A DNA stretch of 24,828 nucleotides from a virus. The DNA lies in the IMG/VR virus record IMGVR_UViG_3300048024_000791, positions 1-24,828 of that record. The stretch is one strand, 5' to 3'. A model generated the notes under the pieces. That model had not been told where the DNA came from, made no database searches, and saw nothing but the letters and a program-made list of their open reading frames with translations. Below are positions 229-24,165 of this stretch, piece by piece. Both the position numbers and the translations under genes were made by a program. Each line of letters starts with the position of its first letter. Position 1 is the first letter of the stretch.

Positions 229-236
229 GTGTAAAT
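229..236 (+). promoter_or_regulatory. GTGTAWWW upstream element (site 1)
   Basis: GTGTAAAT, 2 bases before the ATG at 239 and 8 bases before the in-frame ATG at 245 of the Clp gene. It is one of nine similar elements placed before unit-leading genes in this window. Its role (promoter or start signal) is inferred. Confidence 0.4.
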
Positions 237-238
237 CA

Positions 239-2725
239 ATGAAGATGACGCCAAAACCAAACTTTACGCCGCGAGCACAACAGGCAATTAATGAAGCTAA
301 AAAAGTTGCCCAAAAGTACGGAAATGAGTATGTGACCCTAGATCATTTATTTTTCGGAATGGTCAGCCTGAACGCTGGAATTCTTAGCGAGATACTATTT
401 TTATTACAAATTGATGACGAAAAACTAAAAGAAAAAATAGAAAAATCTCTGTACATTGTTTCAGAAAACGAAAGCATTCAGTCTTTTTCGCCGGAGGATA
501 TAGACTCAGTGTACGACGAACACTTTCACTTAGTGCTAAAAGTATCAGCTTCTATAGCCGAGAAGCTAGGACATGAATATGTCGGAATAGAGCATATACT
601 ACTAGCTTTATTGAAGTACGAAGAATCTAATATATCCGAATACTTTGAATCATTTAACGCTTCAGAAAATGATATAATATCTCAAGTAAGAGAATATCTT
701 CATATATCAAAAGACTCCGCTGCAGAAAGACACAAAAAAACAAGACCTATAAAAACCAAAATAGCCCCAAAAGAACCAAAAATTCAAAACCTAGAAAAAT
801 TTGCAACAAACTTAAACGCAATGGCTTTGCAGGGAAAGTTCGATAGTATTATAGGGAAAGAGTCTGAGATATATGACGTATGTGAAATACTTTGCAGGAG
901 AACAAAAAATAATCCCGTACTATTAGGAGAGCCTGGGGTGGGGAAAACAGCCATAGTTGAAGGGTTAGCGCAGAATATAACGAAAGGAGAATGTTCTGAT
1001 TTTCTTATTAGTAAAATTATATATTCCTTGGACCTAGGATCCCTTATAGCTGGAACTAAATACAGGGGGCAGTTTGAAGAAAGGTTGAAATTAATCATTG
1101 AAGAAGTGAAAAAGAATAAAGATATTATTCTTTTTGTTGATGAAATTCATACCTTAGTTGGGGCGGGAAGTGCAGAAGGAAGTATGGATGCCGCGAATTT
1201 ACTAAAGCCCTTGCTCGCAAGAGGAGAAATAAAGTGCATAGGAGCCACTACGCAAGATGAATACAAGAAATCAATATTAAAAGACGGAGCTCTAGACAGA
1301 AGATTTCAAGCTGTAAAGGTCATCGAGCCAACAAAAGAAGAAGCCAGGGAAATAATAAAAGGAATCAAGCATAAATACGAAGAATTTCATAGTATTCATT
1401 ACCCAGAAGAGGTGTTAGATTTAGTGATAGACTTGACCTCTAGATATGTACTCGACAAACAATTCCCAGATAAAGCAATAGATATACTCGATCAAGCTGG
1501 ATCAAAAGTTAAAATAAAAAATATCGAAAGACCTCAGGCTGCAAAAGATATTGAACAGAGGTTAGAAGACCTAGCTTTAAAAGAATCAAGCTTAAGTTCT
1601 GAAGATTTTAGCTCTCACTACTCGATACTGCAAGACGAACAGCTTGATTTGCTAGAAAAGTATGACGAGATTATATCCAAATGGGCGAAGAAAACAATGA
1701 AGTATAAAATATCTGTAAAGAAAAAAGATATATATGAGGTAGTATCCTCTCGAACCGGAGTCCCTATTTCAGATATCTCAAAGAAAGATTCAGAAAAAAT
1801 GCTCGGGCTATTCAACAAACTAAATAAAAAAATCGTAGGTCAGAGAGAAGCGCTGCAAGAAATTTCAGAATGCATACTTAGATCCAAGTCAGGACTTCAA
1901 GACAGCAACAAGCCAGTAGGAAGCTTTCTTCTTGTTGGAGCCAGCGGAACCGGAAAAACTTATACCGCAAAGTGTATAGCGGAATTTATATACGGAGATA
2001 AAAATAAGCTTATACAAATAGATATGAGTGAATTTTCTGAAAAAATATCGGCAAGTAGGCTAATTGGCGCGTCTCCAGGATATGTCGGCTATGAAGAAGG
2101 AGGAGAGTTGACAGAGAAAGTCAGAAGAAATCCTTACAGCGTTGTTCTATTTGACGAAGTCGAAAAGGCTCACCCAGAAGTTTTAAACATATTACTGCAA
2201 ATTTTAGAAGAAGGATCGGTAACAGATAACTCGGGAAGAAAAATCAACTTCGCTAATTGCACAATTATATTAACAGGTAATATTGGTAGTGAAAAAGTCG
2301 CAAAACCATATATCGGGTTTGGAGAAAAATCGAGCCCCACGAAAGACATGGAAAAGCTTAAAGAAGAACTAAAGACTTTCTTTAGGCCTGAATTCCTAAA
2401 TAGATTAAATGAGATAATTTTATTTAAAAACTTCTCCACAAAGGATATTCAAGACATAACCAAAATAGAAATCAATCACTTATCAAGCAAACTTTCTTGC
2501 AAGAAAATAAAGCTTTCTATTACCCCTAAGGTATGCAAACTTATAGCAGAGAAAGCTGAAGAAGAAAAAATGGGAGCAAGACCAATAAAAAGATTAATTC
2601 AGAAGAATATAGAAAATAAACTATCTAAACTAATTTTAAGTAAAGAATTAAAAGAAAATCAAGAAATAAAATTTTCAGTCTTGAAAGATTCTATTGTATA
2701 TAATATTACGGAAGGATTGGCTTAA
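239..2725 (+). CDS. ClpC/ClpA-type Hsp100 AAA+ unfoldase
   Basis: An 828-residue two-ring AAA+ unfoldase, normal length for ClpC. Order: a Clp N-domain with its two repeats (about residues 8-155), first ATPase with Walker A GEPGVGKT (230-237) and Walker B VDEIH (300-304), a short ClpC-size linker rather than the long ClpB middle domain, second ATPase with GASGTGKT (567-574), pore loop GYVGY, Walker B FDEVEKA (D639), arginine finger FRPEFLNR, and a D2 C-domain with MGARPIKR. An I-G-F tripeptide at 692-694 sits where ClpA/ClpC carry the ClpP-docking loop. All catalytic residues appear intact, so it should be an active ATP-driven unfoldase, probably delivering substrates to a host ClpP because no ClpP is encoded here. 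The start could also be the ATG at 245. The 3' end overlaps the convergent gene by 20 bases. Confidence 0.93.
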   Translation: MKMTPKPNFTPRAQQAINEAKKVAQKYGNEYVTLDHLFFGMVSLNAGILSEILFLLQIDDEKLKEKIEKSLYIVSENESIQSFSPEDIDSVYDEHFHLVLKVSASIAEKLGHEYVGIEHILLALLKYEESNISEYFESFNASENDIISQVREYLHISKDSAAERHKKTRPIKTKIAPKEPKIQNLEKFATNLNAMALQGKFDSIIGKESEIYDVCEILCRRTKNNPVLLGEPGVGKTAIVEGLAQNITKGECSDFLISKIIYSLDLGSLIAGTKYRGQFEERLKLIIEEVKKNKDIILFVDEIHTLVGAGSAEGSMDAANLLKPLLARGEIKCIGATTQDEYKKSILKDGALDRRFQAVKVIEPTKEEAREIIKGIKHKYEEFHSIHYPEEVLDLVIDLTSRYVLDKQFPDKAIDILDQAGSKVKIKNIERPQAAKDIEQRLEDLALKESSLSSEDFSSHYSILQDEQLDLLEKYDEIISKWAKKTMKYKISVKKKDIYEVVSSRTGVPISDISKKDSEKMLGLFNKLNKKIVGQREALQEISECILRSKSGLQDSNKPVGSFLLVGASGTGKTYTAKCIAEFIYGDKNKLIQIDMSEFSEKISASRLIGASPGYVGYEEGGELTEKVRRNPYSVVLFDEVEKAHPEVLNILLQILEEGSVTDNSGRKINFANCTIILTGNIGSEKVAKPYIGFGEKSSPTKDMEKLKEELKTFFRPEFLNRLNEIILFKNFSTKDIQDITKIEINHLSSKLSCKKIKLSITPKVCKLIAEKAEEEKMGARPIKRLIQKNIENKLSKLILSKELKENQEIKFSVLKDSIVYNITEGLA

Positions 2726-3200
2726 CAGGGTCAGGTAGCTCTGGTTCCTTAACCTCCATGGGGTCTTCAAATTTTTCTCCTGGATTCTGTTGGTCGGCGG
2801 AGTCTTTTTGATTATCATTATAAATTGACATGCAAGCTCCAAAACGATCGGCCTGAACAGGATACCTCTTTTTCATGTTGGCATCAAGTATACAACGCGT
2901 AACAAATTGATCTCCCCCTTCTTGAGCTACAGGAACTGGAAACCTTTTATCTTGATTGGATAAGAAATTATTCTTTTCATTCTCAGGAGTTTCTTCTTTT
3001 TTATTGGGAAATATTTCCTCGTATTCAATAAATCGCATAGCTTCGTCAATTAATTCGTAAGCTTGAGTTATATTTTTCTTTACCCAATCGTCGAGAGAAG
3101 GCTTTTCCTTCAAAGACTCATACATGATTCTTGCTTTTTTCCAAATATGAAATAATTCGGATTTCACTTTTTTAGTGTCATTTTCAGATAATTCGCTCAT
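2706..3200 (-). CDS. Hypothetical phage protein with paired-Cys C-terminal motif
   Basis: 164 residues, function unknown. The N-terminal half is helical and charged (two predicted helices, about 8-60). A low-complexity linker follows. Near the C-terminus is a compact motif (about residues 99-128), 'FVTRCILDANMKKRYPV' followed by R-F-G-A-C-M-S-I-Y, with cysteines at 103 and 123. Motifs of this shape (Cys, about 20 residues with a Y/F-P turn, Arg, Cys) occur in several phage virion-associated proteins in my recollection, but I cannot name a family with confidence. The tail is rich in Pro, Glu and Asp. The gene is preceded by a GTGTAAAT element 6 bases before the ATG and follows the 3218-3736 gene by 17 bases. 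Its 3' end runs 20 bases into the convergent Clp gene. Confidence 0.75.
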   Translation of the reverse strand: MSELSENDTKKVKSELFHIWKKARIMYESLKEKPSLDDWVKKNITQAYELIDEAMRFIEYEEIFPNKKEETPENEKNNFLSNQDKRFPVPVAQEGGDQFVTRCILDANMKKRYPVQADRFGACMSIYNDNQKDSADQQNPGEKFEDPMEVKEPELPDPVKPILP

Positions 3201-3206
3201 AATTAC

Positions 3207-3214
3207 ATTTACAC
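3207..3214 (-). promoter_or_regulatory. GTGTAWWW upstream element (site 2)
   Basis: GTGTAAAT on the minus strand, 6 bases before the ATG at 3200, lying in the short gap between two genes. Same 8-mer as site 1. Role inferred. Confidence 0.4.
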
Positions 3215-3217
3215 CTA

Positions 3218-3736
3218 TTAATTAGAATATTCGTCAAGGCTTGATCCTTGATTAGTTGAAGGAGAGTCCTTGCCTACTACTTGACTTGGCTTGGCGCCAT
3301 ACAAGTTATATGCATAAACAAGGTCTTTGATTCTTTCTTGAGATTTAGCATATGCGTCAAGATACGATTTAGCAGTAACATTTTTATTGGTTCTTTGAAT
3401 CATAGAGTCTCCCTCTCGGATTACCTGAAAGTCAGAATCTCCATTGCTGCCATCTATCCCCCTAAGAACTCTCCTGTGGGCCTTCCTGTTATATTCAGAG
3501 ATATACATCTCTTTAAGTATTGACTGTTCCTCCAGATTTAAACCTTCGGGGCTTTCTCCGCTAAAGCAAGTAAATATTAAATTGTTTAGCTCGCCCAAAT
3601 GACCTTCTAGCCAACCAGATATTAAACCTACTTCTGCGTTTCTAACTTCCCCATGAGAATGAAATCCAATCTCTTGGTCGTAGATATTTACAGCCAATTT
3701 GCCTAGGTTTGTATCTGGGAACAGATCGTGTGCCAT
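3218..3736 (-). CDS. Hypothetical phage protein, possibly neck or tail-completion protein
   Basis: 172 residues with no recognised domain. It is soluble, mostly helical, with no signal peptide or membrane segment. The middle contains a 'ISEYNRKAHRRVLRG' basic helix and the end a 'SYLDAYAKSQERIKDLVYAYN' helix (quoted in part), followed by a Ser/Pro-rich tail. It starts one base after the stop of the SAP-like gene, so it is cotranscribed with it. Its place downstream of the capsid gene fits a small head-completion, neck or tail-initiation protein. That is inference from position only. Confidence 0.72.
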   Translation of the reverse strand: MAHDLFPDTNLGKLAVNIYDQEIGFHSHGEVRNAEVGLISGWLEGHLGELNNLIFTCFSGESPEGLNLEEQSILKEMYISEYNRKAHRRVLRGIDGSNGDSDFQVIREGDSMIQRTNKNVTAKSYLDAYAKSQERIKDLVYAYNLYGAKPSQVVGKDSPSTNQGSSLDEYSN

Positions 3737-3737
3737 T

Positions 3738-4157
3738 TTAATTATTCAAGAAATCTATAACCTTTGAATGCTGTGGGTTAGAAGGGTCAAGCTTAACTGG
3801 TTCTCCCATAACTTGAACACTACCTTTTCCGTGAAGGCTAGAATCAAATGCTCTTTTTATTTTATTTTTTAATACCGTTTTATTTCCAGAAGGGAAAACT
3901 CCAACTTTCACAGCAAAGGATTGAAGATCTGTAAGATTCATGTCTTGCAACATGTCAGCGAATACGCGTTTATCATTTGTCTTGAATGGATTGATCTTTG
4001 CAATCCCTAAAATGTCCTCAAGTTCGCGTGCCTTAGCGACTTGATCTTCATAGCTTTTACCGTTTGTTTGTTGAAGATTGTCAAGTTTACTTTTCTTTTC
4101 TGTAGAAGTTTTTTTCGAAGAAGTAGACCTGCTCGATTTTGTTTTTTTGTTTGCCAT
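3738..4157 (-). CDS. Lys-rich protein with SAP-like domain
   Basis: 139 residues. The first 25 are almost only Lys, Ser and Thr, a disordered basic tail. Residues about 72-105 form a two-helix unit 'MNLTDLQSFAVKVGV..K..LKNKIKRAFD' in pattern, which matches a SAP-type fold (helix, Gly/Phe turn, K-x-x-L-x-x-K-I). SAP domains usually bind DNA. The gene lies just downstream of the capsid terminator, with an element GTGTATAA 25 bases upstream and a Shine-Dalgarno-like AAGGAAAAAGG between that element and the ATG. It could be a capsid-associated DNA-binding protein or a head-completion factor. SAP-like assignment is moderately sure; the role is not known. Confidence 0.75.
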   Translation of the reverse strand: MANKKTKSSRSTSSKKTSTEKKSKLDNLQQTNGKSYEDQVAKARELEDILGIAKINPFKTNDKRVFADMLQDMNLTDLQSFAVKVGVFPSGNKTVLKNKIKRAFDSSLHGKGSVQVMGEPVKLDPSNPQHSKVIDFLNN

Positions 4158-4182
4158 AATTTATACCTTTTTCCTTATAGGG

Positions 4183-4190
4183 TTATACAC
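4183..4190 (-). promoter_or_regulatory. GTGTAWWW upstream element (site 3)
   Basis: GTGTATAA on the minus strand, 25 bases before the ATG at 4157 and 20 bases after the 3' arm of the capsid-gene terminator. Its position directly after a terminator and before a leader with a Shine-Dalgarno-like AAGGA supports a promoter role. Confidence 0.5.
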
Positions 4191-4210
4191 TAATATATAG
4201 TAAATTGATA

Positions 4211-4244
4211 AAATAAAAAATCCACCCCAGTTTCCTGAGGTGGA
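4211..4244 (-). terminator. Rho-independent terminator of the capsid gene
   Basis: On the minus strand a 10-bp stem TCCACCTCAG / CTGGGGTGGA (one T-G wobble) closes a GAAA tetraloop and is followed directly by TTTTTTATTT. It lies 28 bases after the stop of the major capsid gene. The plus strand has an A-run on one side and a weaker T-run on the other, so the design favours minus-strand transcripts. Confidence 0.9.
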
Positions 4245-4272
4245 CATTTTATAAAACGTTAATTTGTTTAAA

Positions 4273-5421
4273 TTAAACGATAAGACCAAGTAACACACGG
4301 TCATCGATGATCATTCGGCCTTCTTCAATAGAGCCATAATAACCAATCTTTGATTGACGTGTTACAAATTGATCGTCGGATACAAGACTAAACTCATCTC
4401 CGGACTCGGAATCGGTAGCTACTGCACGAATCATTGATTCACGACTAAGGTCGACACCAACAAGAATTTGTTCTTTGTCTGTACCTCCGTCAAACACTTT
4501 TGGAGTAGATGTTCCGCTAGCGTAGTGATCAGCATACTGTGTGGTGTCTGCAGCGACGTCAAATACGTCGTTCCATTTTTGACCAGCGCCCATTTCGTTA
4601 TATTCCTGAATGGATACGCCATAGAACTCAGGAATGCCAGCGCTATTAAAAATAGCGTCACGCATACTGTCTGTTCCTGCAATGCCATCTCCACCAGTAG
4701 GTGCGCCACCAGCGCCTCCACGACTATTAATCGGATTGTAAGCTAGCCCACGAATTTCTTCTACAATTTCAGGAGAAACAAGAAGATCTGTAATTCCACG
4801 TCCACGACGCTCAGCAGGAGTTCCTCCGGTCCAAGAAGTATTAATTCTTTTCGCTTTGGTGAACAACTTGTTAAGGTCGGAAAGTAAGAACCGTCCTGAT
4901 TGAGCAGAACGCATAACGTGTTTTTCGCTATTTGTTGTAGCGCTAGCCAATGCAGTCATGATCATGCTGGCAGAAGTTTTCTCTTGCTTGAGAAGAATTT
5001 CTTGAGCCATGCGTGTGAATGTCTTGCTGACTACATCAAGTCTAGAACGAGAAGCATAACGCTTGTCGAAACTCAATGCGCTATCGAGAGTATAAGTTGT
5101 GAACTTAAGCTCGCTTTGTGATGGAGCGACTTGGTTGGTAGGAAGTCCGCCAGGAACTGATTGACTCCAAACTTGAATGTAATCTTCGTCAGTCATATCG
5201 TGATAAAGATCCAATGGAATACTTGGACTCTCTTCGCTGTTAAACTGAAGACTAGTAAACATGTTACTTACAGTAGGAGCTGTGTTAACAACTTCTGCTA
5301 AAACTGGACCAATAAATTCAGCCAATGCAGTTTGAGCTTCGTAAGCTACGTCTCTATTCTTTGAAGCCATAGCTTTAATAAGCTCGACTTGCTCGGGTGT
5401 TCTATCTAAAGTAATTTTCAT
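4273..5421 (-). CDS. Major capsid protein (putative, HK97-fold)
   Basis: 382 residues, a typical size for a major capsid protein. Placement is strong: it follows the large terminase, the protease-scaffold protein and a small beta-rich decoration-like protein, and precedes an efficient terminator. Features seen: a helical N-terminus, 'SPSIPLDLYHDMTDEDYIQVW', a 'TYTLDSALSFDKRYASRSRLDVV' E-loop/spine-helix-like region (quoted in part), a long central helix with 'MAQEILLKQEKTSASMI', a Gly-rich loop (GGAGGAPTGGDG), and a C-terminal 'DRVLLGLIV' strand. The base composition is less AT-rich than the flanks and codons look optimised, as expected of a highly expressed gene. A Shine-Dalgarno-like AAGGAA lies about 9 bases before the ATG. 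The family call rests on context and architecture, not on a diagnostic motif. Confidence 0.85.
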   Translation of the reverse strand: MKITLDRTPEQVELIKAMASKNRDVAYEAQTALAEFIGPVLAEVVNTAPTVSNMFTSLQFNSEESPSIPLDLYHDMTDEDYIQVWSQSVPGGLPTNQVAPSQSELKFTTYTLDSALSFDKRYASRSRLDVVSKTFTRMAQEILLKQEKTSASMIMTALASATTNSEKHVMRSAQSGRFLLSDLNKLFTKAKRINTSWTGGTPAERRGRGITDLLVSPEIVEEIRGLAYNPINSRGGAGGAPTGGDGIAGTDSMRDAIFNSAGIPEFYGVSIQEYNEMGAGQKWNDVFDVAADTTQYADHYASGTSTPKVFDGGTDKEQILVGVDLSRESMIRAVATDSESGDEFSLVSDDQFVTRQSKIGYYGSIEEGRMIIDDRVLLGLIV

Positions 5422-5439
5422 TTTTTTAAATTTCCTTTC

Positions 5440-6069
5440 TTAGAAGCTGACTTTGCAGAGATATTTCTTAGTTGTATTATCATCGCTTTCTTCTCCGATT
5501 GCGATAACAGTTCCAACTGCTGCACCAGAACTCTTCACAGTAAGCTTTCCTCCGGTTGCGACTTCAAGTTCATCTCCAAGTGCGACAGTGCCACTTATAG
5601 CTCCTGCAGCGAGAAGAACGAGACCCTTTGTCAAAACAGGAACTGTTTGACCAGGAAGAACTCCTTGAGCTTCATCAAGTTTTTGTTTGTAATAGAGCAT
5701 TTTCTCTCCATTCTCGTCGAAAGCCAAGGTTTCACGTAATGTGATTCCAAGTCCACGACTGCCAGCAGCAGCAGGAGCAACGGTCATACCTGTGTTAGCG
5801 GGGTATCCGTTGAATCCAATATGCGCTCCGCTAAAACTAGCGCCTAGATAGCCTCGGAGGGCATCGCTAGATTCAGCACGCAATTCGGAAACCTCACCAG
5901 GTAGAGCTCCCGCACTTACAGAAACGACAACGCCTGCATCGAAATCTCCTGATCCATTAGAAACCATTCCAGCCAACGTTGTAGCTGTTGCGGATGATAA
6001 ATCAAGAGAAAACAAATTAACAACATCGTGTTCACTGTAGTCTCGGTATGGTAGTATTCTTTTTGCCAT
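5440..6069 (-). CDS. Putative capsid decoration / head-stabilising protein
   Basis: 209 residues, rich in Ala, Gly, Val and Ser and predicted to be nearly all beta. The N-terminus 'MAKRILPYRDYSEHDVVNLF' is followed by a low-complexity Gly/Ala/Ser region. The last about 65 residues show alternating strands with a 'LVLLAAGAISGTVALGDELE' hairpin and 'GTVIAIGEESDDN', the look of DUF2190-like capsid decoration domains. It sits between the protease-scaffold gene and the major capsid gene, spaced by 18-19 bases on each side, the usual position for a decoration protein. Its composition resembles the capsid gene, suggesting high expression. A head fibre or minor capsid protein is an alternative. Confidence 0.65.
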   Translation of the reverse strand: MAKRILPYRDYSEHDVVNLFSLDLSSATATTLAGMVSNGSGDFDAGVVVSVSAGALPGEVSELRAESSDALRGYLGASFSGAHIGFNGYPANTGMTVAPAAAGSRGLGITLRETLAFDENGEKMLYYKQKLDEAQGVLPGQTVPVLTKGLVLLAAGAISGTVALGDELEVATGGKLTVKSSGAAVGTVIAIGEESDDNTTKKYLCKVSF

Positions 6070-6088
6070 AATTTTTTTCTTCTATTTT

Positions 6089-7687
6089 TTAGTATGAAAT
6101 TTTAACAGATTCTTTAAAAGTTTTTGCGAATCTATCTTTAAGGGAAACTTGGTCAGAAGAGCTTTCGTTGTTATTAACAACAGCAGCCTCTTCAACTTCG
6201 AGAGAGTCAAGAGCTTCAGAAACTTCGTCTGAACTTTCTTCTTGAGCTTCTGATGCTTGAGAAACCTCAACTTGTGTTTCTTCTTTTGTTGCGGCTTCGA
6301 CTGTTTCGAGTCGTTTTGCAACTTCTGAAGCTACTCGATCTTCAAATGCTTTTTGTTCAGCAGCGATGAAATCTTTATTTTTATGTTTCCAAACCTTGGC
6401 TAGTTTTTCTTGGTATCCAGCGAAACTCTCTTCAGTTTCGTCGAGACTAGAAAGCTCAGACGCCACAATTTTGGAATCTTCTTCATCAAGCTCATAAACT
6501 TCATTCAAGAGCTCCATGCGTGAATTAAATCTAACCTCAGCTTCGCGAGCTGCATTTTCTTCTTCAAGAGAAGTCAACTTTTCTTTTGTTGACTGTAGCT
6601 GTTGTTCAACTTCGCCCATTTTCTCTTGAAGAGAATTTTGAGCCAGAACAGCTTCTTCTTTTTCAGCTTTAGCTTTTTCGAGATCGGCGACATATTGTTC
6701 ACCTTTCTCTCGGATAGCTTCGATAAAAACTTTGGAGATGCTTGCGACACTCTCTTCAGAAAAATCTTGGCTGCCAAGCTTTTCGTCTAAAGCTGCTCGG
6801 AATTCATTTATAATTTGATCTTTATCCATAATAGTATTATTAGGTTCTTTGTTTAGTACATTTTCTTTGGGTGAATGGGAAGTTTTTTTACTTCTTGTAA
6901 TTAATTGGTCGATCGGCTTATTACTGCTTGACACTTCAGGCGTGGATTTTCCTTGGTCTGCGATAAGACCTTTTACATCTGCAGCAGGGTTAGAAGTAAA
7001 GCCTATACCTAAGGGGTAAATTTCTCCTACGATAAGTCGGTTAACTTTTCTTCCGTCTTTTAAAAGCCCTTTTCCTCCTAAAGATTTTAAATAAGGAGAA
7101 TAAGCCTCGACTTCTTGAGGGTCGGAGATAATTGTCGAATCGCACAAATCATCACCTCCTACAGAAATAACGTAATCATTAAAACCTACCTCCCAGCTAG
7201 CAGAAACAGTTGAGTAGTAATCGCTGTCTTCATCAGTAGAACTTAAAACAAGGTCGGAAAACTCCTTGCTTGCTGTTTTATAAACTACAGCTGCGAGCGC
7301 AATATTGTAAGCATTCTCTTCAATTAAAGCTTCATCGTCACTCATCAAAGAGGAGGAATCATCATACTTTGAAAAGCCTGCGGAAACAATATGGCCAACA
7401 ATCTTATCTCGATCATGTTCTATATTCGTAGGCTTATGAATAAAAAAATCTTTAATTTTTACCGCCGCTTCACTATCTATACCATCTCCATTTTTATTAA
7501 ATTTATTTACCACTGCAGCATTAAAAGCAACTCCAAGAAGGTCAATATTTTTTTCCAAGTTTATATCTTGAGGAATTAAAGGTCTAAGAGATTCCAATGA
7601 AGCTTTACTAATTGAGGACTTCTCTATGTCGCTTGAAGCGAAAACTACATTATCAAAAGTTGCGGTGTATTTATATTTTTTAGACAT
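6089..7687 (-). CDS. Prohead protease fused to scaffold/core protein
   Basis: 532 residues from the ATG at 7687 (a TTG two codons upstream is also in frame). Residues about 1-245 are an assemblin/prohead-protease-like domain: a 'NKNGDGIDSEAAV' segment, 'NIEHDRDKIVGHI' with candidate catalytic His91 (or His99), and 'YYSTVSASWEVGF' with candidate nucleophile Ser162 or Ser164. This fits the S77/S78/U35 class in general. After a Ser/Lys-rich linker (about 250-285), residues about 290-532 are a long acidic coiled coil ('LQEKMGEVEQQLQSTKEKL') typical of scaffolding proteins, with a C-terminal basic tip 'DRFAKTFKESVKISY' that may contact the capsid protein. An internal Met287 (ATG ending at 6829) opens the scaffold half and could yield a separate 246-residue scaffold. 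It lies directly between terminase and the decoration/capsid genes. Confidence 0.85.
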   Translation of the reverse strand: MSKKYKYTATFDNVVFASSDIEKSSISKASLESLRPLIPQDINLEKNIDLLGVAFNAAVVNKFNKNGDGIDSEAAVKIKDFFIHKPTNIEHDRDKIVGHIVSAGFSKYDDSSSLMSDDEALIEENAYNIALAAVVYKTASKEFSDLVLSSTDEDSDYYSTVSASWEVGFNDYVISVGGDDLCDSTIISDPQEVEAYSPYLKSLGGKGLLKDGRKVNRLIVGEIYPLGIGFTSNPAADVKGLIADQGKSTPEVSSSNKPIDQLITRSKKTSHSPKENVLNKEPNNTIMDKDQIINEFRAALDEKLGSQDFSEESVASISKVFIEAIREKGEQYVADLEKAKAEKEEAVLAQNSLQEKMGEVEQQLQSTKEKLTSLEEENAAREAEVRFNSRMELLNEVYELDEEDSKIVASELSSLDETEESFAGYQEKLAKVWKHKNKDFIAAEQKAFEDRVASEVAKRLETVEAATKEETQVEVSQASEAQEESSDEVSEALDSLEVEEAAVVNNNESSSDQVSLKDRFAKTFKESVKISY

Positions 7688-7696
7688 ATACAAAAA

Positions 7697-7704
7697 TCTT
7701 ACAC
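7697..7704 (-). promoter_or_regulatory. GTGTAWWW upstream element (site 4)
   Basis: GTGTAAGA on the minus strand, 9 bases before the ATG at 7687 of the protease-scaffold gene and immediately after the terminase stop codon. Role inferred from recurrence. Confidence 0.35.
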
Positions 7705-9576
7705 TTAGTTTATAAACATGGGAGTAAAAGTATAATTCACGTTATTAACTTTAGAGTTCATTATATCATAGTAAAGTTTAATCATCCAATTGCCAAGTAT
7801 TAATGCAGAATAACTATCTTTTCTCGCTTTTTCTGGGCCGGTTTGACGCTTTAAACTAGGAGGAAGATCAAATGTTTGAGTTCCTCCTGCAGAAGTAGAT
7901 ATCTGAATTAAAGAACATTGAGTTTTAATAAGATTCATCATATCAAATTGATGCTCAACAAAGTCAATCATTTTCGCTGCATTTGTTTGGCGCTCTAAAC
8001 TTTGAGATGTTCTTAAAAATTTTAAATCCTGAATTGGTATTTTTTTATTTCTTTGTTCGTTATAAGCATCATCAATTGCTCTTGCCCCAAAGAATATCCG
8101 ATGATGATCAAAGTTGGCCTGAAGCAACTCGTTCGCCAACCTAATCCACTGACTAGTAGGTTTGCGCAAATAACAAATCGTTTTATCTTCTAAATTATAT
8201 TCTTTTTTCCCTTCTATTATTTTTTCTTGATAATGTTCTAAGTCATCAAAGTTAGTATTTAAACATTTTATATTCATTTTATTTTTCTTGAACAAACTAC
8301 TTTCATTACAAGCATTAATAAACTGCACTCCTCCATTATAATCTCCAACAATAGATACAATATTAAAATGAGTAAGTAAATAATAAAAATAAAAAATATG
8401 TTGTTTTAAATTTGTGCCGCTTAAAGCGTAGCTATGCACGACAGTCCCAATCTTCTTGTCGTCGTTAAGCTTGAGCACCATCATAGCAAAGTCATCACTA
8501 CTTTCACTTTCTGCCCAACTCGGATCAAATGCCAAAATATATTTTTGCCCAACCTCCCCGCGCACTTCAATAGTTGGAGTCTCTCCATCTTTCAAAGTGC
8601 ACGAAGCCATCTTGGAGGTCTTAAAATATCCGCTGCTATCGTCAGTAAAAATTGAACCAAACTCTCTGTCGAACTGGCTCTGACTCATTGTAGACTTCGC
8701 CTGATCCAAAAGATTTTGGTCGTACAACTGCTTTGGGGCGCAGTCATAACTAAACTGCATGATAACCCTGTGCGCATCACTTTGTTTTGAGCTGCCTTGG
8801 CGAATCAAATCTTCAAATTGCTCGTAAGCTTTGTACATGTACTCAAACTTATAACTTGCTGAAGAAAGAGCTATTAGCTTATTGTTGCGCCAAACGTGCC
8901 GCTCGTCTTCGTTCATCTTTCCTTGCTCAATTAAATTCGTCTCAAGGTTAAATAAAGCCTCCCTTTGAGTCGGGTTTTCGACCACACTCAAGAACGGTAT
9001 TATAACCTCATTATAAATACGCTCGGGCATAAGGGCAAACTCGTCTATAATAATTCTATGAAAACGAAATCCTCGAAGCTTCTCTCCATCTCCAAGAGGT
9101 AGAGCTCGGATCCTACTGCTACCGATCTCAAGTAGCCATTCATCGTTGCTTTTTGATTTATGCGTTATACATTGAGCTAGATATGTTGCCCCAGGCTTCG
9201 AGGCAATATCTTCAATTTTTTTGAATATCATCTTGGCTTGCCGGAAGGATTTTGAGAGTATTCCTATCTCGACTCCTTGATTCATTATAGCGTCTAAATA
9301 TGCATATATGGCAGTAGTGAATGACTTACTCATTCCTCGAGACCATACCCCCATGAAATAATCTGTTTCAAACATAGCCTTTATCGCCATATGCTGAAAA
9401 GGAAAAAGCTGAACTCCGCTAACTAAATCTGCAGTAAATGTGATATTCTCCCTCAAGAACTTGTATAGTAAAATCTTAGCTTCTTTTTCTTCTATAAACC
9501 CTTTCATTTCTTCAAGTTGTTCATTGAAGTTTTTTTCTTCAGCCCTAGATAATTGATTTCCTGTTTCCCAAGTCAT
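7705..9576 (-). CDS. Terminase large subunit
   Basis: 623 residues, usual size for a DNA-packaging motor ATPase-nuclease. The ATPase half has a Walker-A-like WSRGMSKS (78-85), in which the usual first Gly is replaced as in many large terminases, and a Walker B 'RIIIDEF' with D178 and E179. A coupling-type motif follows around 'LIALSSAS' (233-240). The C-terminal RNase-H-like nuclease has 'YILAFDPSW' (D351), 'IVGDYNGG' (D412) and 'RKDSYSALILG' (D587), the three expected metal-binding acidic residues. It cuts and translocates DNA into proheads. The start ATG overlaps the stop of the upstream ERCC4 nuclease gene by one base (TAATG), which suggests coupled translation. A short tail after D587 ends the protein. 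Confidence 0.95.
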   Translation of the reverse strand: MTWETGNQLSRAEEKNFNEQLEEMKGFIEEKEAKILLYKFLRENITFTADLVSGVQLFPFQHMAIKAMFETDYFMGVWSRGMSKSFTTAIYAYLDAIMNQGVEIGILSKSFRQAKMIFKKIEDIASKPGATYLAQCITHKSKSNDEWLLEIGSSRIRALPLGDGEKLRGFRFHRIIIDEFALMPERIYNEVIIPFLSVVENPTQREALFNLETNLIEQGKMNEDERHVWRNNKLIALSSASYKFEYMYKAYEQFEDLIRQGSSKQSDAHRVIMQFSYDCAPKQLYDQNLLDQAKSTMSQSQFDREFGSIFTDDSSGYFKTSKMASCTLKDGETPTIEVRGEVGQKYILAFDPSWAESESSDDFAMMVLKLNDDKKIGTVVHSYALSGTNLKQHIFYFYYLLTHFNIVSIVGDYNGGVQFINACNESSLFKKNKMNIKCLNTNFDDLEHYQEKIIEGKKEYNLEDKTICYLRKPTSQWIRLANELLQANFDHHRIFFGARAIDDAYNEQRNKKIPIQDLKFLRTSQSLERQTNAAKMIDFVEHQFDMMNLIKTQCSLIQISTSAGGTQTFDLPPSLKRQTGPEKARKDSYSALILGNWMIKLYYDIMNSKVNNVNYTFTPMFIN

Positions 9577-13897: not shown

Positions 13898-13903
13898 ATA
13901 AAT

Positions 13904-13911: not shown

Positions 13912-13939
13912 AAAAATAATTTTACAAAAAAATAAATAT

Positions 13940-13947: not shown

Positions 13948-13955
13948 TATAGTAT

Positions 13956-14761: not shown

Positions 14762-14767
14762 GTCAAA

Positions 14768-15613: not shown

Positions 15614-15614
15614 A

Positions 15615-16391: not shown

Positions 16392-16398
16392 TTATTCT

Positions 16399-16406: not shown

Positions 16407-16579
16407 TATTTTATACTTAAAAGATGCTTGCAGATATCTTCTGCACATTATTATAATATTTTATTTTATATTTTATACTCAAACTATATTTAAACTATAT
16501 TCAAATCATAAATTAATTGTTTTTATTTTTAGCTGTATTTATTGAAAAACAAAAAAACAAAAGCTAGTATATAACATAC

Positions 16580-16777
16580 ATGAAAGATTCATTGAGCGTG
16601 GTTAGTGTTTTATTGGTTATATTTTATATGGGGTGGTTTATGTGGAAGCAGAGAGAGCTAATACAGTCGCAGAACGACTATATCGATCAACTCGAACATG
16701 ACGCAATAATTCAAAATATATTATTACAGCAAGTAATTCAAGAAAAAGAAAATCCAATATATAAAAGAGCTATATAA
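16580..16777 (+). CDS. Small membrane-anchored coiled-coil protein
   Basis: 65 residues. Residues about 5-22, 'LSVVSVLLVIFYMGWFMW', are one N-terminal membrane segment. A coiled coil follows from 23 to about 56 ('ELIQSQNDYIDQLEHDAIIQ'). This N-in, single-pass layout with a coiled ectodomain resembles small i-spanins, Rz-like proteins and many phage membrane proteins of unknown role; 65 residues is short for an i-spanin. It is followed after 63 bases by the next plus-strand gene. Confidence 0.65.
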   Translation: MKDSLSVVSVLLVIFYMGWFMWKQRELIQSQNDYIDQLEHDAIIQNILLQQVIQEKENPIYKRAI

Positions 16778-16840
16778 TTGCCGCGAAAACTAATCAATAT
16801 TTTAGTTTAATTTTTTATATACTTTTATATAATAGTACAT

Positions 16841-17161
16841 ATGACAGACGCAACACTAGAAAATCCAGAAGAAACTGAAAAGAAAAACGCCGAATCAACA
16901 GAAAACAAAGAGTTGACTGATGAGCAAAAACTAGATTACGATATGGCTATTGCTGCTATAGCGAATCAATTTCTTGATAAAACTAATTTGGCAGAAGCTT
17001 TCAGCACTGTACCATTAAGTACGTTAATTCAATCGGTTCAAAGCCAGGCAGTCACACAAGCTAAAGAAACAATCAAGCAAATGCCCGCCGAAGACTATAA
17101 CGGACTTGTTAATGACCTCAAAAATCAGTCAGAGAACCAAGAAAGCGAAAAAACAGAATAA
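16841..17161 (+). CDS. Hypothetical acidic protein
   Basis: 106 residues. The first 30 residues are a Glu/Lys/Thr/Asn-rich disordered tail and the last 20 are also low-complexity. Between them, 'DYDMAIAAIANQFLDKTNL' and 'LSTLIQSVQSQAVTQAKETI' predict a small helical bundle. No family is recognised and there is no membrane segment or metal site. The upstream sequence TATATAATAG lies close to the ATG. A strong rho-independent terminator lies 27 bases after the stop, so this gene ends a plus-strand unit. Confidence 0.68.
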   Translation: MTDATLENPEETEKKNAESTENKELTDEQKLDYDMAIAAIANQFLDKTNLAEAFSTVPLSTLIQSVQSQAVTQAKETIKQMPAEDYNGLVNDLKNQSENQESEKTE

Positions 17162-17188
17162 ACTTTTAAAAATCTATATTCCATGAAG

Positions 17189-17219
17189 ACCAACGGTGAT
17201 CATTTGCCGTTGGTTTTTT
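17189..17219 (+). terminator. Rho-independent terminator after the small plus-strand genes
   Basis: A perfect 8-bp stem ACCAACGG / CCGTTGGT with a 10-base loop is followed by TTTTTT on the plus strand. On the minus strand no T-run follows the stem, so it works for the plus strand. It ends the 16580-17161 unit and abuts the convergent gene at 17218. Confidence 0.88.
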
Positions 17220-17520
17220 ATTTTAATTTACTTATAATGTAATTTAAATTGTCGCAAGTTATTTTATCGACCGAAATATCTGCACACTTATCAGTTTTTA
17301 AAGTAAATCCAGATTCTCTCTCAGTGTCTATTATTAGATAGCTTATAAAGTCATGCGCGCCAAACCCTTTGAGCCAGCTCCAATACATACTACGAGTGCC
17401 TGGCGGGCATTCTAGAAGCACATCCTCGAACTTGTATGTTCGAGCATATAATGTAACATCTCGAAAACAAGAAATTTCACTGGGAGGCTCACTCAAGCAG
17501 GACTCGATAATTAATTTCAT
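17218..17520 (-). CDS. Hypothetical protein
   Basis: 100 residues, no recognised family. Five cysteines (8, 18, 38, 79 and 89) are scattered with no clear metal-site spacing. A mix of strands and helices is predicted, with 'RSMYWSWLKGFGAHDFISYL' in the middle. No signal peptide or membrane segment. It overlaps the upstream membrane coiled-coil gene by ATGA, so the two are coupled, and its stop codon lies at the edge of the plus-strand terminator. Confidence 0.65.
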   Translation of the reverse strand: MKLIIESCLSEPPSEISCFRDVTLYARTYKFEDVLLECPPGTRSMYWSWLKGFGAHDFISYLIIDTERESGFTLKTDKCADISVDKITCDNLNYIISKLK

Positions 17521-17750
17521 TTTTCTAATTTTTCGAAGAGTCGAACAACATCATTTCTTCTATCCTCCAAAAGTCTTTGAGTTTGTTCCCATCGTTCTGC
17601 ATCTCTAGCTCCGTTTTTAGCTAAATCAACTTCCATTCTTCTTAGTTTCGATCCTAGTTTTTCGATTTTTAAGCTTTCTCTTTTTAAATAGAAGGCAATA
17701 ATCGACACTAATATGCCAACTCCTATTATCAATATTTCTTGCATTTCCAT
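17517..17750 (-). CDS. Small membrane-anchored coiled-coil protein
   Basis: 77 residues from the ATG at 17750, chosen because the GTGTATTT element then sits 6 bases upstream as at other genes; ATGs at 17756 and 17744 and a TTG at 17768 are also in frame. Residues about 5-22, 'EILIIGVGILVSIIAFYL', are a membrane segment. The rest is a charged coiled coil, 'RESLKIEKLGSKLRRMEVDL' to the C-terminus. It mirrors the plus-strand protein at 16580-16777 in layout. Possible i-spanin-like or membrane scaffold role; unproven. Confidence 0.68.
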   Translation of the reverse strand: MEMQEILIIGVGILVSIIAFYLKRESLKIEKLGSKLRRMEVDLAKNGARDAERWEQTQRLLEDRRNDVVRLFEKLEK

Positions 17751-17756
17751 ATACAT

Positions 17757-17764
17757 AAATACAC
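17757..17764 (-). promoter_or_regulatory. GTGTAWWW upstream element (site 8)
   Basis: GTGTATTT on the minus strand, 6 bases before the ATG at 17750. A 70-base gap without genes separates it from the stop at 17835. Confidence 0.38.
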
Positions 17765-17834
17765 GCAAGACGGGGGAACCCTTAATACGAATTTTCTATA
17801 AATTAGTTTATGTAATTATTCTTAACAAAAAGAA

Positions 17835-18227
17835 TTAATTAGAATTTTGCTGTTTTTGCTTATAAATTTTTCCCCTAATGATTGCGGGTTGACATAGAAA
17901 ATCTCTACATATTCTTGGTCTATCTTTATATATTGAGCAAGACTTGATACCTTTATCTCCATCACCCTTTAATTGCTTGCATTTTAAGCAATGAGAACCA
18001 CGCTTTAGTTTAGACTTGTCTTCGAATACGGCATCATAAAGATCTTGAGCTTCTTTGTTCTTTGGGTCGTAAAAAAATAACTTGCAGCAATAATTCTTCT
18101 TCAAGCATCCTGACCAATTCGAGCTAGTACCATGTTCTTTGATATAAAGGTCGACCTCTCGCTTGGCCCCTTGCAATGAAATCTTTTTAGATGGCGAATA
18201 AAAAAAATATTGATCATCTTTGCTCAT
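17835..18227 (-). CDS. YkgJ-like cysteine-cluster protein
   Basis: 130 residues with eight cysteines (41, 47, 48, 80, 83, 97, 107, 112). The end pattern 'CLKCKQL' then 'CSIYKDRPRICRDFLC' follows the R-P-x-x-C-R-x-F-x-C signature of the YkgJ (CxxCxxCC) zinc/iron-chelating family. These proteins are thought to bind Zn, Fe or an iron-sulfur cluster, and some relatives take part in protein methylation or modification; the exact role is unclear. The start overlaps the stop of the oxygenase gene by ATGA, suggesting the pair acts together. The Lys/Gln-rich tail is probably disordered. Confidence 0.75.
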   Translation of the reverse strand: MSKDDQYFFYSPSKKISLQGAKREVDLYIKEHGTSSNWSGCLKKNYCCKLFFYDPKNKEAQDLYDAVFEDKSKLKRGSHCLKCKQLKGDGDKGIKSCSIYKDRPRICRDFLCQPAIIRGKIYKQKQQNSN

Positions 18228-20000: not shown

Positions 20001-21476
20001 TTAAAAAACTATAAGTGAAATATAAGCGGAATCATACCAGAGATTATTAGACCCCAGCCCAATTTTAATAGAATTGTTTCCCACATTATAGAGATCAGAA
20101 TACAAAATAGGATGCCCATCTGATCTTTCTGAATTATCATGAAACGCAACCGGATTCGGTACTGGACTAGTAAAAGTAACAGTATACTGACCAGCCTGAT
20201 GGTCGGTAATACTTGACACATTAAAGCTATTAGAAGCACTTAATTCTGTGGTCATATTTGATGCAGTTCCATCAAATTCTACATATGCGCGTGGGCCTGA
20301 GCCGCCACCGCCACCAGACGCAATGATTTTGATACGATATGCTGTGTTCCCAACTATATTTAAGTAATTTAATTCTCCAGGTGTCGCGGCACTCTCTCCA
20401 AGAATTTTTTCAAATATACGTATTGTGCCAGTATTTGAATCAATAGGATTGTAATGCACTCCTGAGTCTGTACTCACACTCCATTCGTCTGACTGCAGGC
20501 CAATATTCTGCTCTTTTCCGGTAGATACATCTTGTATGTAAACTTGTACTACAGGATATTTATTGCCAAGCATATGTGATATTGATAAGTCTGCGTAATT
20601 ATCGCTAGAGCCGGCAGCATAATTTGGCACCTCCAGCCAACCACTATCAAAATTCCCTCCGCTGCTTCCGCCGCCACCACCGCCAGCCAATAAATTGGTT
20701 CCTACTACATCAGCGCATTCAGTTAAATCGAGGTATGCACCCCTAAAAGGCGAGGCGCCTTCAAAAAATCTTAATCGATTTTCACATTGATCAAAATGTA
20801 CATAACTTCCTCCGAGCGTAGAATTCGGAGCTTTTTCGAAAGCCATTTCTCCACCTTCGTTTCCAGATACAATTCCAGAACCAACTATCATTCCTGGAGC
20901 AAAAAGATTGCTGCCATCAAATTTTAAATTTACATTGGCGCCAAATGCTCCATTGTCATTGAATTGAAGTTGACGATCTGATCCGGCAGGCGTTCCTCCT
21001 CCACCACCAGATCCCATTTTTGCAGATACAACAACTTTTACATATTTTGAAGCCCAGCTTTCTTTACTCCAGGTTCCAGAGCTGGAAACATTAAAAAATC
21101 CTCCAGCACCTAATTGAAGAGAAAGCTGGGTTTCGGATATGTTATCAATAATAGCTCCATCCATTTTTGAGCCGGCACTAGATGCAGCGCTATCAGTAAA
21201 TATTTGATACGCGTTGCTTCCCAACGAATCATGTGATACCCAAATTTGAATCACAAAATCTGTCGTTCCTAAATTATGATTAAAAGTCAAAGTCGCACCA
21301 TCTGCAACTGCTGTGGTTCCATCTGTGTTGACCCATCCAGTACTAAATGCAGAACCATCTGTTCCTGCTGAGATATCATAAACCACTGCGCCGTTATCAA
21401 CTCTTCGAGTATAAGTTTTTCCTCCAAATGAAAATGAATTCATGGAGTTGTTGGTTAATGTATCTTTAATTGACAT
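20001..21476 (-). CDS. Tail-fibre-like protein 2
   Basis: 491 residues, beta-rich. Order: an N-terminal 'STGW...HNLGTTDFVIQIWV' module (about 14-155) shared with fibre 3; a Gly linker; 'SDRQLQFNDNGAFGANVNLK' (a motif common in phage fibres); a Gly linker; a second, diverged 'DSGWLEV...SHMLGNKYPVVQVYI' module (about 275-385); a Gly linker; and a C-terminal domain from about 393. That domain opens with a stretch identical in protein and DNA to fibre 1 (residues about 397-422) and then diverges. No catalytic or signal motif. It sits 3 bases after the 21480-21716 gene. Role inferred: receptor-binding or virion decoration. Confidence 0.78.
   Translation of the reverse strand: MSIKDTLTNNSMNSFSFGGKTYTRRVDNGAVVYDISAGTDGSAFSTGWVNTDGTTAVADGATLTFNHNLGTTDFVIQIWVSHDSLGSNAYQIFTDSAASSAGSKMDGAIIDNISETQLSLQLGAGGFFNVSSSGTWSKESWASKYVKVVVSAKMGSGGGGGTPAGSDRQLQFNDNGAFGANVNLKFDGSNLFAPGMIVGSGIVSGNEGGEMAFEKAPNSTLGGSYVHFDQCENRLRFFEGASPFRGAYLDLTECADVVGTNLLAGGGGGGSSGGNFDSGWLEVPNYAAGSSDNYADLSISHMLGNKYPVVQVYIQDVSTGKEQNIGLQSDEWSVSTDSGVHYNPIDSNTGTIRIFEKILGESAATPGELNYLNIVGNTAYRIKIIASGGGGGSGPRAYVEFDGTASNMTTELSASNSFNVSSITDHQAGQYTVTFTSPVPNPVAFHDNSERSDGHPILYSDLYNVGNNSIKIGLGSNNLWYDSAYISLIVF
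20212..20288. repeat. 77-bp perfect direct repeat, copy A
   Basis: Identical base for base with 22793-22869 (offset 2581). It lies in the C-terminal domain of fibre 2, in the same reading frame as in fibre 1, just after a Gly linker. Confidence 0.97.
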
Positions 21477-22554: not shown

Positions 22555-24150
22555 TTAGTGAACTATAAGCGAAACATAACTGGGATTATGGTGACTACCA
22601 AGGTTACCACCGCTATCTATTTCATTGATTCTGAGTACTACAGCCGAGCTTGAAACGCTAGATATTCTGGCAAGAACATGATTATCGCTGCCAACGGAGG
22701 TGTTCGGGTTGAGGGCGTGCGCATTGACTACCGGGTTAGTTACTGGGCTTGTAAATGTGATAGTATAGATTCCAGTTCCACCATCTGTGATGCTTGACAC
22801 ATTAAAGCTATTAGAAGCACTTAATTCTGTGGTCATATTTGATGCAGTTCCATCAAATTCTACATATGCACGCGGACCAGTTCCGCCACCACCGCCGCCA
22901 TTTGCTTGAATCCATCCGCCAATTGAATCGGTATAAACATAAAGTGCAGCGCTACTTTCGTCGTACCATAAATCTCCATCAGATGCGCTAGCTGGAACAG
23001 TCTCATCAGTACTAACACTTGCTCCGCCGCCTCCGCCGCCTCCGCCGCCACCACCAGCATTAATTTTGAATATTGAAAGCCTACCTTTTAACGTGGGAAC
23101 GTTATCGGAGCTACAGGTGTATTCAAAGTAAAGCTTATTCCCTGCATTTAAATATCTTGCGCCTGAAAAGTTTAAAGTTTCTTGGTTTTCTCCTGCTACT
23201 TGGCCTGCTGCAGCTAAATTTTCAGGAGAACCATTCGGAATGGTGTCTCCTGTGTGCAGTCGTAAGGAGATTGATGTAGAAGTATTTACATTAAGTTGAA
23301 TTGACGCATTAAGTTGATAAAATCCACTATCCGGCACGGTAAATACTGCGGCTCGATCAGTGCCCGTACCGCTTCCATTTCCTGTTGATAAACTGCTTGT
23401 ATCATCTGTATGAATTGTTGCGGTAATATTTGCAGCGCTATCGTCAAAGCAAAACCATCCTCCGCCTCCAGACATGTGGGCTGCATTTGCCGTAAATTCA
23501 GCATCAATATTTACCGCAGCACTTGATCCACCAACAGCTCCATTGGTTTGAATCCATGCATCTCTATCTGCAAAGTATACATACAATGAAGCAGTATCTG
23601 AATCCCACCATAAATCGCCATCGCTTGGCGAGCCAGGAGCATCTGTCGAAACAGAAATTGAACCACCGCCTGTACCGGGTGTGCCTCCAACACCTCCTTT
23701 TGTTATGATTTCATTTATTTTTGTACGAATTTGATCAACAGAAACTGATGCTCGAGCTCCACCAAGATTATTTCCGGGCAATAAACCAGTACCGTATCCA
23801 TCTTCAGGGCCACCATTTACGACTGGATGAGAGACTTTTATCTTTCCATTCATTACAGGATGAGAACTACAAACATATGTATACGAACCTTCTCCAAGTA
23901 AATTTGCATCAGATATTAAAGCAATTTGTCCGTTCGATTCGGTCACTTGCCACGAAACATAATCTGCGCTCAAATTCATTACATGACCGCCGCTAGCATT
24001 GGTTATGGTTATATCGTCATCGCTGCGAATATAAATTGTCGGATTTGGAGCATCTTCTAAACCGTGTCCGTTCCATAAATATGCAGAGTTGTCAGATGCA
24101 GCAGTAACAGTATAATTATACGATTTAGATAAATTGGTTCGATTACTCAT
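22555..24150 (-). CDS. Tail-fibre-like protein 1 with cupredoxin-like and C1q-like domains
   Basis: 531 residues, multi-domain. Residues about 10-108 are cupredoxin-like: 'NASGGHVMNLS' (H56) and 'GSYTYVCSSHPVMNGKIKV' (C94, H97, M100), the four ligands of a type 1 copper site, with C-x2-H-x2-M spacing shorter than plastocyanin. Then come a 'DGDLWWDSDTASLYVY' module (about 166-201), a C1q/TNF-like jelly roll (about 210-362, 'FTVPDSGFYQLNASIQL'), a run of 11 Gly, a second 'DGDLWYDESSAALYVY' module (about 377-416), a Gly linker, and a C-terminal domain from about 424 shared in its first part with fibre 2. It is the first gene of the fibre operon, with a GTGTAATC element 7 bases upstream. Role inferred: virion adhesin. 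Confidence 0.82.
   Translation of the reverse strand: MSNRTNLSKSYNYTVTAASDNSAYLWNGHGLEDAPNPTIYIRSDDDITITNASGGHVMNLSADYVSWQVTESNGQIALISDANLLGEGSYTYVCSSHPVMNGKIKVSHPVVNGGPEDGYGTGLLPGNNLGGARASVSVDQIRTKINEIITKGGVGGTPGTGGGSISVSTDAPGSPSDGDLWWDSDTASLYVYFADRDAWIQTNGAVGGSSAAVNIDAEFTANAAHMSGGGGWFCFDDSAANITATIHTDDTSSLSTGNGSGTGTDRAAVFTVPDSGFYQLNASIQLNVNTSTSISLRLHTGDTIPNGSPENLAAAGQVAGENQETLNFSGARYLNAGNKLYFEYTCSSDNVPTLKGRLSIFKINAGGGGGGGGGGGASVSTDETVPASASDGDLWYDESSAALYVYTDSIGGWIQANGGGGGGTGPRAYVEFDGTASNMTTELSASNSFNVSSITDGGTGIYTITFTSPVTNPVVNAHALNPNTSVGSDNHVLARISSVSSSAVVLRINEIDSGGNLGSHHNPSYVSLIVH
22793..22869. repeat. 77-bp perfect direct repeat, copy B
   Basis: Identical with 20212-20288. It encodes residues about 428-453 of fibre 1, just after a Gly linker. 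Confidence 0.97.
23024..23056. repeat. 9-bp tandem repeat coding for poly-Gly
   Basis: Three consecutive 9-base units (CCGCCGCCT, CCGCCGCCT, CCGCCGCCA), then two more CCA triplets, encode most of the 11-Gly linker of fibre 1. Such arrays can change length by slippage in steps of whole codons. Confidence 0.85.
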
Positions 24151-24157
24151 TCTATTT

Positions 24158-24165
24158 GATTACAC
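24158..24165 (-). promoter_or_regulatory. GTGTAWWW upstream element (site 9)
   Basis: GTGTAATC on the minus strand, 7 bases before the ATG at 24150. It lies in the 21-base gap between the PhoH stop and the first gene of the fibre operon. Confidence 0.45.

Follow-up and report, generated by a model that had tools for sequence, protein, structure and literature searches.

Phage-coded sigma factors that act on -10-type late promoters are already known, as are single phage mRNAs that lack a leader. The T4 late promoter TATAAATA is a -10-only promoter read by the phage sigma factor gp55. T4 gp55 has no known sigma4 domain, needs the sliding clamp, and depends on gp33/gp45 co-activation. The element considered here is GTGTA followed by three A or T positions (GTGTAWWW) in the phage record IMGVR_UViG_3300048024_000791; the window analyzed is the whole IMG/VR record of 24,828 bases. 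An earlier note on this DNA listed nine copies of the element before genes that lead transcription units on both strands, and proposed either a phage-specific -10-type promoter, with several mRNAs leaderless or nearly so, or a translation-start signal. The evidence favors the promoter: judged from the sequence, GTGTAWWW is, at a probability of roughly 0.8, a -10-type promoter without a -35 box, whose likeliest reader is an extracytoplasmic function (ECF)-like sigma factor of the phage with the host RNA polymerase, yielding near-leaderless late mRNAs.

The closest described system is that of phage phiEco32, in which the ECF-type sigma factor gp36 is described as reading tAATGTATAtA, a common motif 6-8 nucleotides (nt) upstream of the start (PMC4281155). 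The two systems share a phage-coded ECF-type sigma factor, and their motifs and spacing are alike: TAATGTATA of phiEco32 and the TAGTGTATA-like form of this phage group are one core base apart, and the 6-8 nt spacing, if applied to GTGTA, would place the start at or next to the ATG. The sigma factor of the window, however, has no BLASTP similarity to gp36 (best 13.5 bits, E 4.8). The system would therefore appear to work like phiEco32 gp36, but it is not classed as a member. In addition, phiEco32 itself carries a Shine-Dalgarno core at 64% of its called genes and displays neither of the two promoter registers described below. The T4 stretches tested differ from this phage group as well, with Shine-Dalgarno peaks and neither register, and the phage sigma factor here, unlike gp55, has a sigma4-like domain in its predicted model.

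The late mRNAs of Thermus phage P23-45 are reportedly leaderless, and that phage is not known to encode a sigma factor. Its middle and late promoters are described as an extended -10 class that is less affected when the -35 contact is blocked, and the phage acts on the host sigmaA holoenzyme via gp39 (PMC7403470). As far as this description goes, the P23-45 promoters resemble the GTGTA class in being of -10 type and differ from it in working through the host sigmaA holoenzyme. A -10 signal ∼10-12 nt before the start codon has been presented as an in-silico mark of leaderless bacterial genes in a paper that also recounts how leaderless initiation was found early in phage lambda (PMC3160421), and phage transcripts are often leaderless according to another (PMC5312081). 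An open-access literature search revealed no title on GTGTA phage promoters or on a two-sigma leaderless program in this register.

Relatives of the window's terminase are encoded in at least 599 IMG/VR stretches, from which 80 loci were kept. In the 880 distinct upstream regions of the window and these 80 relatives, the top five 6-mers by excess over the genome background all contain GTGTA, with GTGTAA occurring 92 times versus 5.5 expected. Intergenic DNA holds 355 GTGTA per 248,448 strand positions, versus 182 sense and 179 antisense per 945,801 coding positions each. The register of the element was analyzed in 11 long relative records and the window, comprising ∼1,340 called genes; the records are fragments, the open reading frame (ORF) calls are simple and ATG-only, and distance is counted from the G of GTGTA to the A of the first ATG. 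GTGTA lies within 60 nt upstream of 172 genes, about one gene in ten carries the element, and 150 sites are left once near-duplicates are dropped. Among these non-redundant sites the distance is 14 in 43, 15 in 29, 16 in 11, and 17 in 11, and it is 13 in none. At the 11 sites with a first ATG less than 13 nt away, an in-frame ATG follows at 14-18 in eight. Overall, 107 of the 175 GTGTA within 60 nt upstream fall at 14-17, versus 12.5 if the distribution were flat. The same script detected no such peak in the control phages T4 (100 kb; 0/4 at 14-17), HTVC008M (100 kb; 0/7), and phiEco32 (1/11), all small counts, and returned Shine-Dalgarno-like words among their top positional words.

The base that precedes the ATG carries a further signal. 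At distance-14 sites it is a pyrimidine (C or T) in 44 of 46, versus 46% of 636 genes without GTGTA or TTGAC, consistent with the pyrimidine-purine step at which transcription usually starts. Across loci, the register is illustrated by the post-terminase junction: GTGTA is present in 71 of 74, the letters between GTGTA and the start vary, and the ATG lies at 14-17 in 61 and at 19-24 in seven of the 74. Inspection by eye revealed a GTG at 15 and 14 in loci L043 and L062, respectively, and no GTGTA at the junction in L077, L080, and L081. The GTGTA class has no -35 box in either clade and no second strong element within 50 nt upstream of GTGTA, and one clade displays a weak G preference 18 nt upstream of it. 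In one clade, repeated ACTTT tracts occur just upstream of GTGTA at the post-terminase junction (many of L060-L086). At most other sites of that clade's three records, these tracts are not seen.

In the window, the nine sites are all present with the coordinates and strands that the earlier note gave them. The GTGTAWWW form fits seven of the nine; the last three positions depart from it at 7697-7704 (GTGTAAGA) and 24158-24165 (GTGTAATC), both on the - strand. The sites are as follows.

229-236, + strand: GTGTA element of the Clp-type AAA+ gene; first ATG (239) at distance 10, another ATG in frame 6 nt later, at distance 16
3207-3214, - strand: GTGTA element; ATG 3200 at 14 nt
4183-4190, - strand: GTGTA element, leadered variant that recurs in relatives; ATG 4157 at 33 nt with a Shine-Dalgarno sequence between
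4220-4245, - strand: terminator-like hairpin of 11 pairs with a T tail, upstream of the 4183-4190 element
7697-7704, - strand: GTGTA element at the junction of the terminase and the next gene; ATG 7687 at 17 nt
13904-13911, - strand: GTGTA element; ATG 13897 at 14 nt, its gene heading a same-strand run that later includes the sigma gene
13940-13947, + strand: GTGTA element, divergent partner of 13904-13911; ATG 13956 at 16 nt
16399-16406, - strand: GTGTA element; ATG 16391 at 15 nt
17757-17764, - strand: GTGTA element; in-frame ATG 17750 at 14 nt, first ATG 17756 at distance 8
24158-24165, - strand: GTGTA element; ATG 24150 at 15 nt

Two further exact GTGTAWWW matches, at 7665 (+) and 15516 (+), lead no main gene. 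The totals in the window are not above chance, with nine GTGTAWWW versus 5.9 +/- 2.3 and 18 GTGTA versus 22.4 in shuffles. Eight of these 18 GTGTA lie 14-17 nt before the in-frame ATG of one of the 28 main genes (P ∼6e-17), the best result of all 1024 5-mers.

The leadered site at 4183-4190 has the upstream hairpin, and AAGGAAAAAGG before its ATG, just as had been described. The element lies behind the hairpin that follows 4273-5421, and its layout, GTGTA ∼33 nt before the ATG with a AAGGAAAAAGG-like stretch between, recurs in relatives, in 11 distinct sequences including the window that were collected with a search pattern fitted to the start of the window gene. Across the register set, a Shine-Dalgarno core is found at 4% of 106 near GTGTA sites (shuffled 9%) and at 32% of 34 far sites (shuffled 10%). 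GTGTA thus precedes leadered as well as leaderless starts, as would be expected of a promoter but not of a translation signal.

Within coding sequence, GTGTA is depleted on both strands relative to synonymous shuffles, with 161 sense occurrences versus 326 expected and 195 antisense versus 541. Pooled over both strands, GTGTA/TACAC occurs 356 times versus 892 expected, and only one of the 512 5-mer pairs ranks lower. That both strands are depleted suggests that the element is recognized in double-stranded DNA and that stray promoters carry a cost. In the coding DNA of the 11 relatives and the window, CCGGT/ACCGG is avoided even more than GTGTA, and ACGTA, ACGTG, and CCGGC are among the next; restriction or host-defense pressure is a possible cause of the avoidance of CCGGT/ACCGG and its kin.

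An unsupervised table of 5-mers by position unexpectedly assigned first place to TTGAC exactly 35 nt before the ATG, in 82 genes. Within 60 nt upstream, TTGAC falls at 34-37 in 137 of 241 cases versus 17 if flat, and the control phages have no peak there (T4 1/4, HTVC008M 0/11, phiEco32 0/7; small counts). Alignment of 81 non-redundant sites revealed an A/T-rich stretch near -45 to -39, then CTTGAC(A/T), followed by T at -12 (64%), A at -11 (79%), and T at -7 (90%), forming TAnnnT, with a -1 pyrimidine in 68 of the 81. The TTGAC class thus has the appearance of a textbook sigma70 promoter whose +1 would be the A of the ATG, and since both classes would set the start on the ATG, it calibrates the GTGTA class. 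The TTGAC class also fits the TA-led leaderless genes described in PMC3160421, with a -35 box in addition, whereas the GTGTA class has another motif and that survey, as described, concerns bacterial and archaeal genomes.

In six records, the 72 GTGTA-led proteins include the Clp-type protein (six), PhoH (two), and many without a family, while the 104 TTGAC-led proteins include DnaB-like helicase (five), DNA polymerase family (five), ligase (two), ribonucleotide reductase small chain (two), UvdE (three), and RIIB (one). Among the promoters of the relatives' replication genes, many are of sigma70 type and share this leaderless register. The TTGAC and GTGTA classes are called early and late by inference from gene content. 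Both classes are arranged in blocks along the records, with 88 runs, whereas 5000 shuffles gave 128.8 +/- 7.2 and never fewer than 101; records G003 and G017 have a clear block order, and G004, G010, and G011 a mixed one.

The proposed reader of GTGTA and the promoter in front of its gene occupy the following positions in the window.

11532-12299, - strand: ECF-like sigma factor, with sigma2 at residues ∼13-91, a Cys-rich linker, and a sigma4-like region at ∼164-248
12633-12660, - strand: sigma70-type promoter TTGATA-16-TATAAT, with ATG 12624 at 8 nt, before the gene upstream of the sigma gene
12253-12624, - strand: small gene behind this promoter, its end overlapping the start of the sigma ORF

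The family Sigma70_r2 is detected in 11 of 11 sigma homologues (best 1.9e-6), and residues 16-91 of the predicted model align to the N-terminal domain of SigE (8b3z) with Z 7.9 and a root-mean-square deviation (rmsd) of 2.2 over 72 residues. The sigma4 region is weak by sequence, with PF08281 in four of 11 homologues (best 0.015); PHROG sigma families match over residues 142-235 (E 1.9e-4 and 0.0066), and in the predicted model residues ∼164-248 align to several sigma4 domains with Z ∼7 and rmsd 2.2-4.1 over 63-72 residues. A sigma homologue of 58-87% identity is present in 25 of 25 records searched, which were picked by a terminase encoded a few kb from the sigma gene, so that this count is not independent evidence for the reading of GTGTA.

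In the window, the sigma operon is led by the sigma70-type promoter at 12633-12660; of the 60 promoter-like hits in 3000-17900, no other reaches 11 of 12. Across the window and 50 relatives, 23 of 51 sigma operons pass a sigma70 leaderless score, versus 11% of 1020 random windows, and a GTGTA-led ATG is found at one of the 51. A sigma70-type promoter at this operon suggests a cascade from host sigma70 to the phage sigma factor to the GTGTA promoters. The sigma gene also lies downstream, on the same strand, of the GTGTA-led gene at 13897, and readthrough from there could amplify sigma.

A number of observations weigh against a GTGTA promoter read by the phage sigma factor, or limit what can be drawn from it. 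The records are related to one another, and counts overstate their independence; the control-phage counts are small. When words in the upstream regions are ranked by their excess over the complementary strand, A/G-rich words lead and GTGTAT is fourth. The -1 pyrimidine is weak at distances 15 (17/31), 16 (8/13), and 17 (7/11), making leaders of 1-3 nt likely at some sites. Shine-Dalgarno use is low genome-wide, at 17% of 774 genes without GTGTA (shuffled 11%; random positions 13%) and 24% of 205 closely spaced genes (shuffled 8%), and its absence at near sites is therefore only moderately discriminating. CCGGT, ACGTA, and other words are depleted from coding sequence to about the same extent as GTGTA. 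The window sigma factor scores 23.6 bits on Sigma70_r2, below the curated 24; its model has a predicted local distance difference test score of 68, which is low to medium confidence, and structural Z values of ∼8 or less; and its best Foldseek match has E 0.012, with none below 0.001, although sigma factors head the list. The sigma70 leaderless score is not passed at 28 of the 51 sigma loci, at least eight of which by eye have the same boxes at another distance from the ATG. One ribonucleotide reductase large chain is GTGTA-led, a poor fit to a pure late class. Finally, under strict motif definitions, 56% of the 128 divergently placed genes carry neither element; a near GTGTA is present at 20% of them and a sigma70 leaderless match at 19%.

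Several other explanations for the element were considered. Chance or base composition in compact genomes would be in line with window totals that do not exceed shuffles, but the positional bias in the window alone, its repetition in relatives, and the lack of a peak in the control phages reduce its probability to practically nil, and it was rejected on these position tests and controls. A signal in the mRNA that is recognized by the ribosome or a phage factor at translation start, the second proposal of the earlier note, would account for the short fixed distance to the ATG and for near sites without Shine-Dalgarno sequences. The fit is nevertheless poor and the explanation was rejected as highly improbable, mainly because coding avoidance is stronger antisense (195 versus 541) than sense (161 versus 326) and because the element stands ∼33 nt off, with a Shine-Dalgarno sequence between, at the recurring leadered locus; moreover, the -1 pyrimidine is a mark of transcription start and most genes do without the element. 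Equally improbable is a role for GTGTA as operator or activator site in overlap with ordinary promoters, with leadered mRNAs starting elsewhere. Statistics on 5-mers could miss the degenerate signals of such promoters, and one clade has its weak G preference 18 nt upstream, but the 50 nt upstream of GTGTA hold no second strong element and the register with the ATG is exact to a few bases.

An explanation that is unlikely, though well ahead of these, retains the leaderless -10-type promoter and assigns its reading to the host, through sigma70 with a phage activator or through a host alternative sigma factor. The indirect link between the phage sigma factor and GTGTA, with sigma found in records picked by a neighboring terminase, leaves room for a host reader, as does the lack of BLASTP similarity to gp36. 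On the other hand, GTGTA has neither the -35 box nor the -7 T that sigma70-type promoters of the same genomes display, an ECF-like sigma factor is conserved in every record searched, and the phiEco32 sigma factor is described as reading a near-identical motif with like spacing (PMC4281155). No phage RNA polymerase was found that might be the reader: PF04998 was detected in 0 of 13 records, which are fragments, and in 14 of 14 controls. PF00940 was likewise detected in 0 of 13, in a search where no control came up positive. Phage copies of ribosomal protein S21 and of IF3, which might bear on leaderless translation, were each found in 0 of 13 records.

The fixed spacing, the -1 pyrimidine, the avoidance on two strands, the conserved leadered variant, and the conserved sigma factor all speak for a phage-specific -10-type promoter. 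In the mechanism proposed for it, host RNA polymerase with sigma70 would read TTGACA/TAnnnT and produce near-leaderless early mRNAs together with the sigma mRNA, and the phage sigma factor would then steer the host core enzyme to GTGTAWWW to produce near-leaderless late mRNAs. The G of GTGTA would lie at about -14, and transcription would start on the A of the ATG or up to 3 nt ahead of it. A large number of late mRNAs would begin with, or nearly with, the start codon and have no Shine-Dalgarno sequence; many early and replication genes, with sigma70-type promoters and TTGAC 35 nt before the ATG, would likewise be leaderless. A promoter in register with the start codon, the feature by which leaderless genes are recognized, is what the sequence displays. 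Many early and late messages of the phage group thus probably carry almost no leader, and the late messages are likely read by the phage's own sigma factor. There is an even chance that the lineage, which is common in IMG/VR, builds its early and late program largely on leaderless mRNAs under two sigma factors and so bypasses Shine-Dalgarno recognition. Two promoter types that both place the start exactly on the start codon would, if true, constitute a natural system of leaderless translation and make it possible to recognize start codons in many uncultured genomes from their DNA only, and GTGTA and the phage sigma factor would provide a testable sigma-promoter pair. Being leaderless might give phage messages an advantage at stages of infection in which host messages suffer from impaired leader-dependent initiation.

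The nearest isolates by terminase are at most 26.4% identical among the 20 listed of 73, and the sigma protein has no match in the phages collection searched; the group is therefore uncultured as far as that collection shows. Terminase relatives occur in metagenome-assembled genomes (MAGs) named Halobacteriovorax, uncultured bacterium, Flavobacteriaceae, and Verrucomicrobiales. Inspection by eye of the TTGACA-to-ATG spacings among the matches listed for the Halobacteriovorax and Verrucomicrobiales MAGs revealed no clear peak at 35; a few TTGACA at 35, again among the matches listed, are on contig C12 of the Halobacteriovorax MAG, which may be the phage contig. Two GTGTA-led genes of relatives, L124:5635-7902 (-) and L096:6239-7519 (-), encode PSCyt2/PSD1 and DUF1501 proteins. 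These families are typical of Planctomycetes and Verrucomicrobia, and their genes may be a host clue or unusual cargo.

The proteins of the window include a terminase, a Clp-type AAA+ protein, a PhoH-like fragment, and the sigma-like protein. The GTGTA-led Clp-type protein (239-2725) has Pfam matches to Clp_N, AAA, and AAA_2. Other gene labels of the earlier note (SAP-like, protease-scaffold, holin, paralogue, and fiber) were not confirmed: neither 6089-7693 nor 4273-5421 has a Pfam or PHROG match at E 0.01, in a scan that did not include the fiber-like genes. Labels such as capsid, protease-scaffold, or fiber derive from the note or from gene position. The proteins of 20001-21476 and 22555-24150 share a stretch near the C-terminus that starts with GPRAYVEFDGTASNMTTELSASNSFNVSSIT. 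The protein of 9576-10499, adjoining the terminase, matches a C2H2-type zinc finger, a homing-endonuclease-associated repeat, and an ERCC4 nuclease domain.

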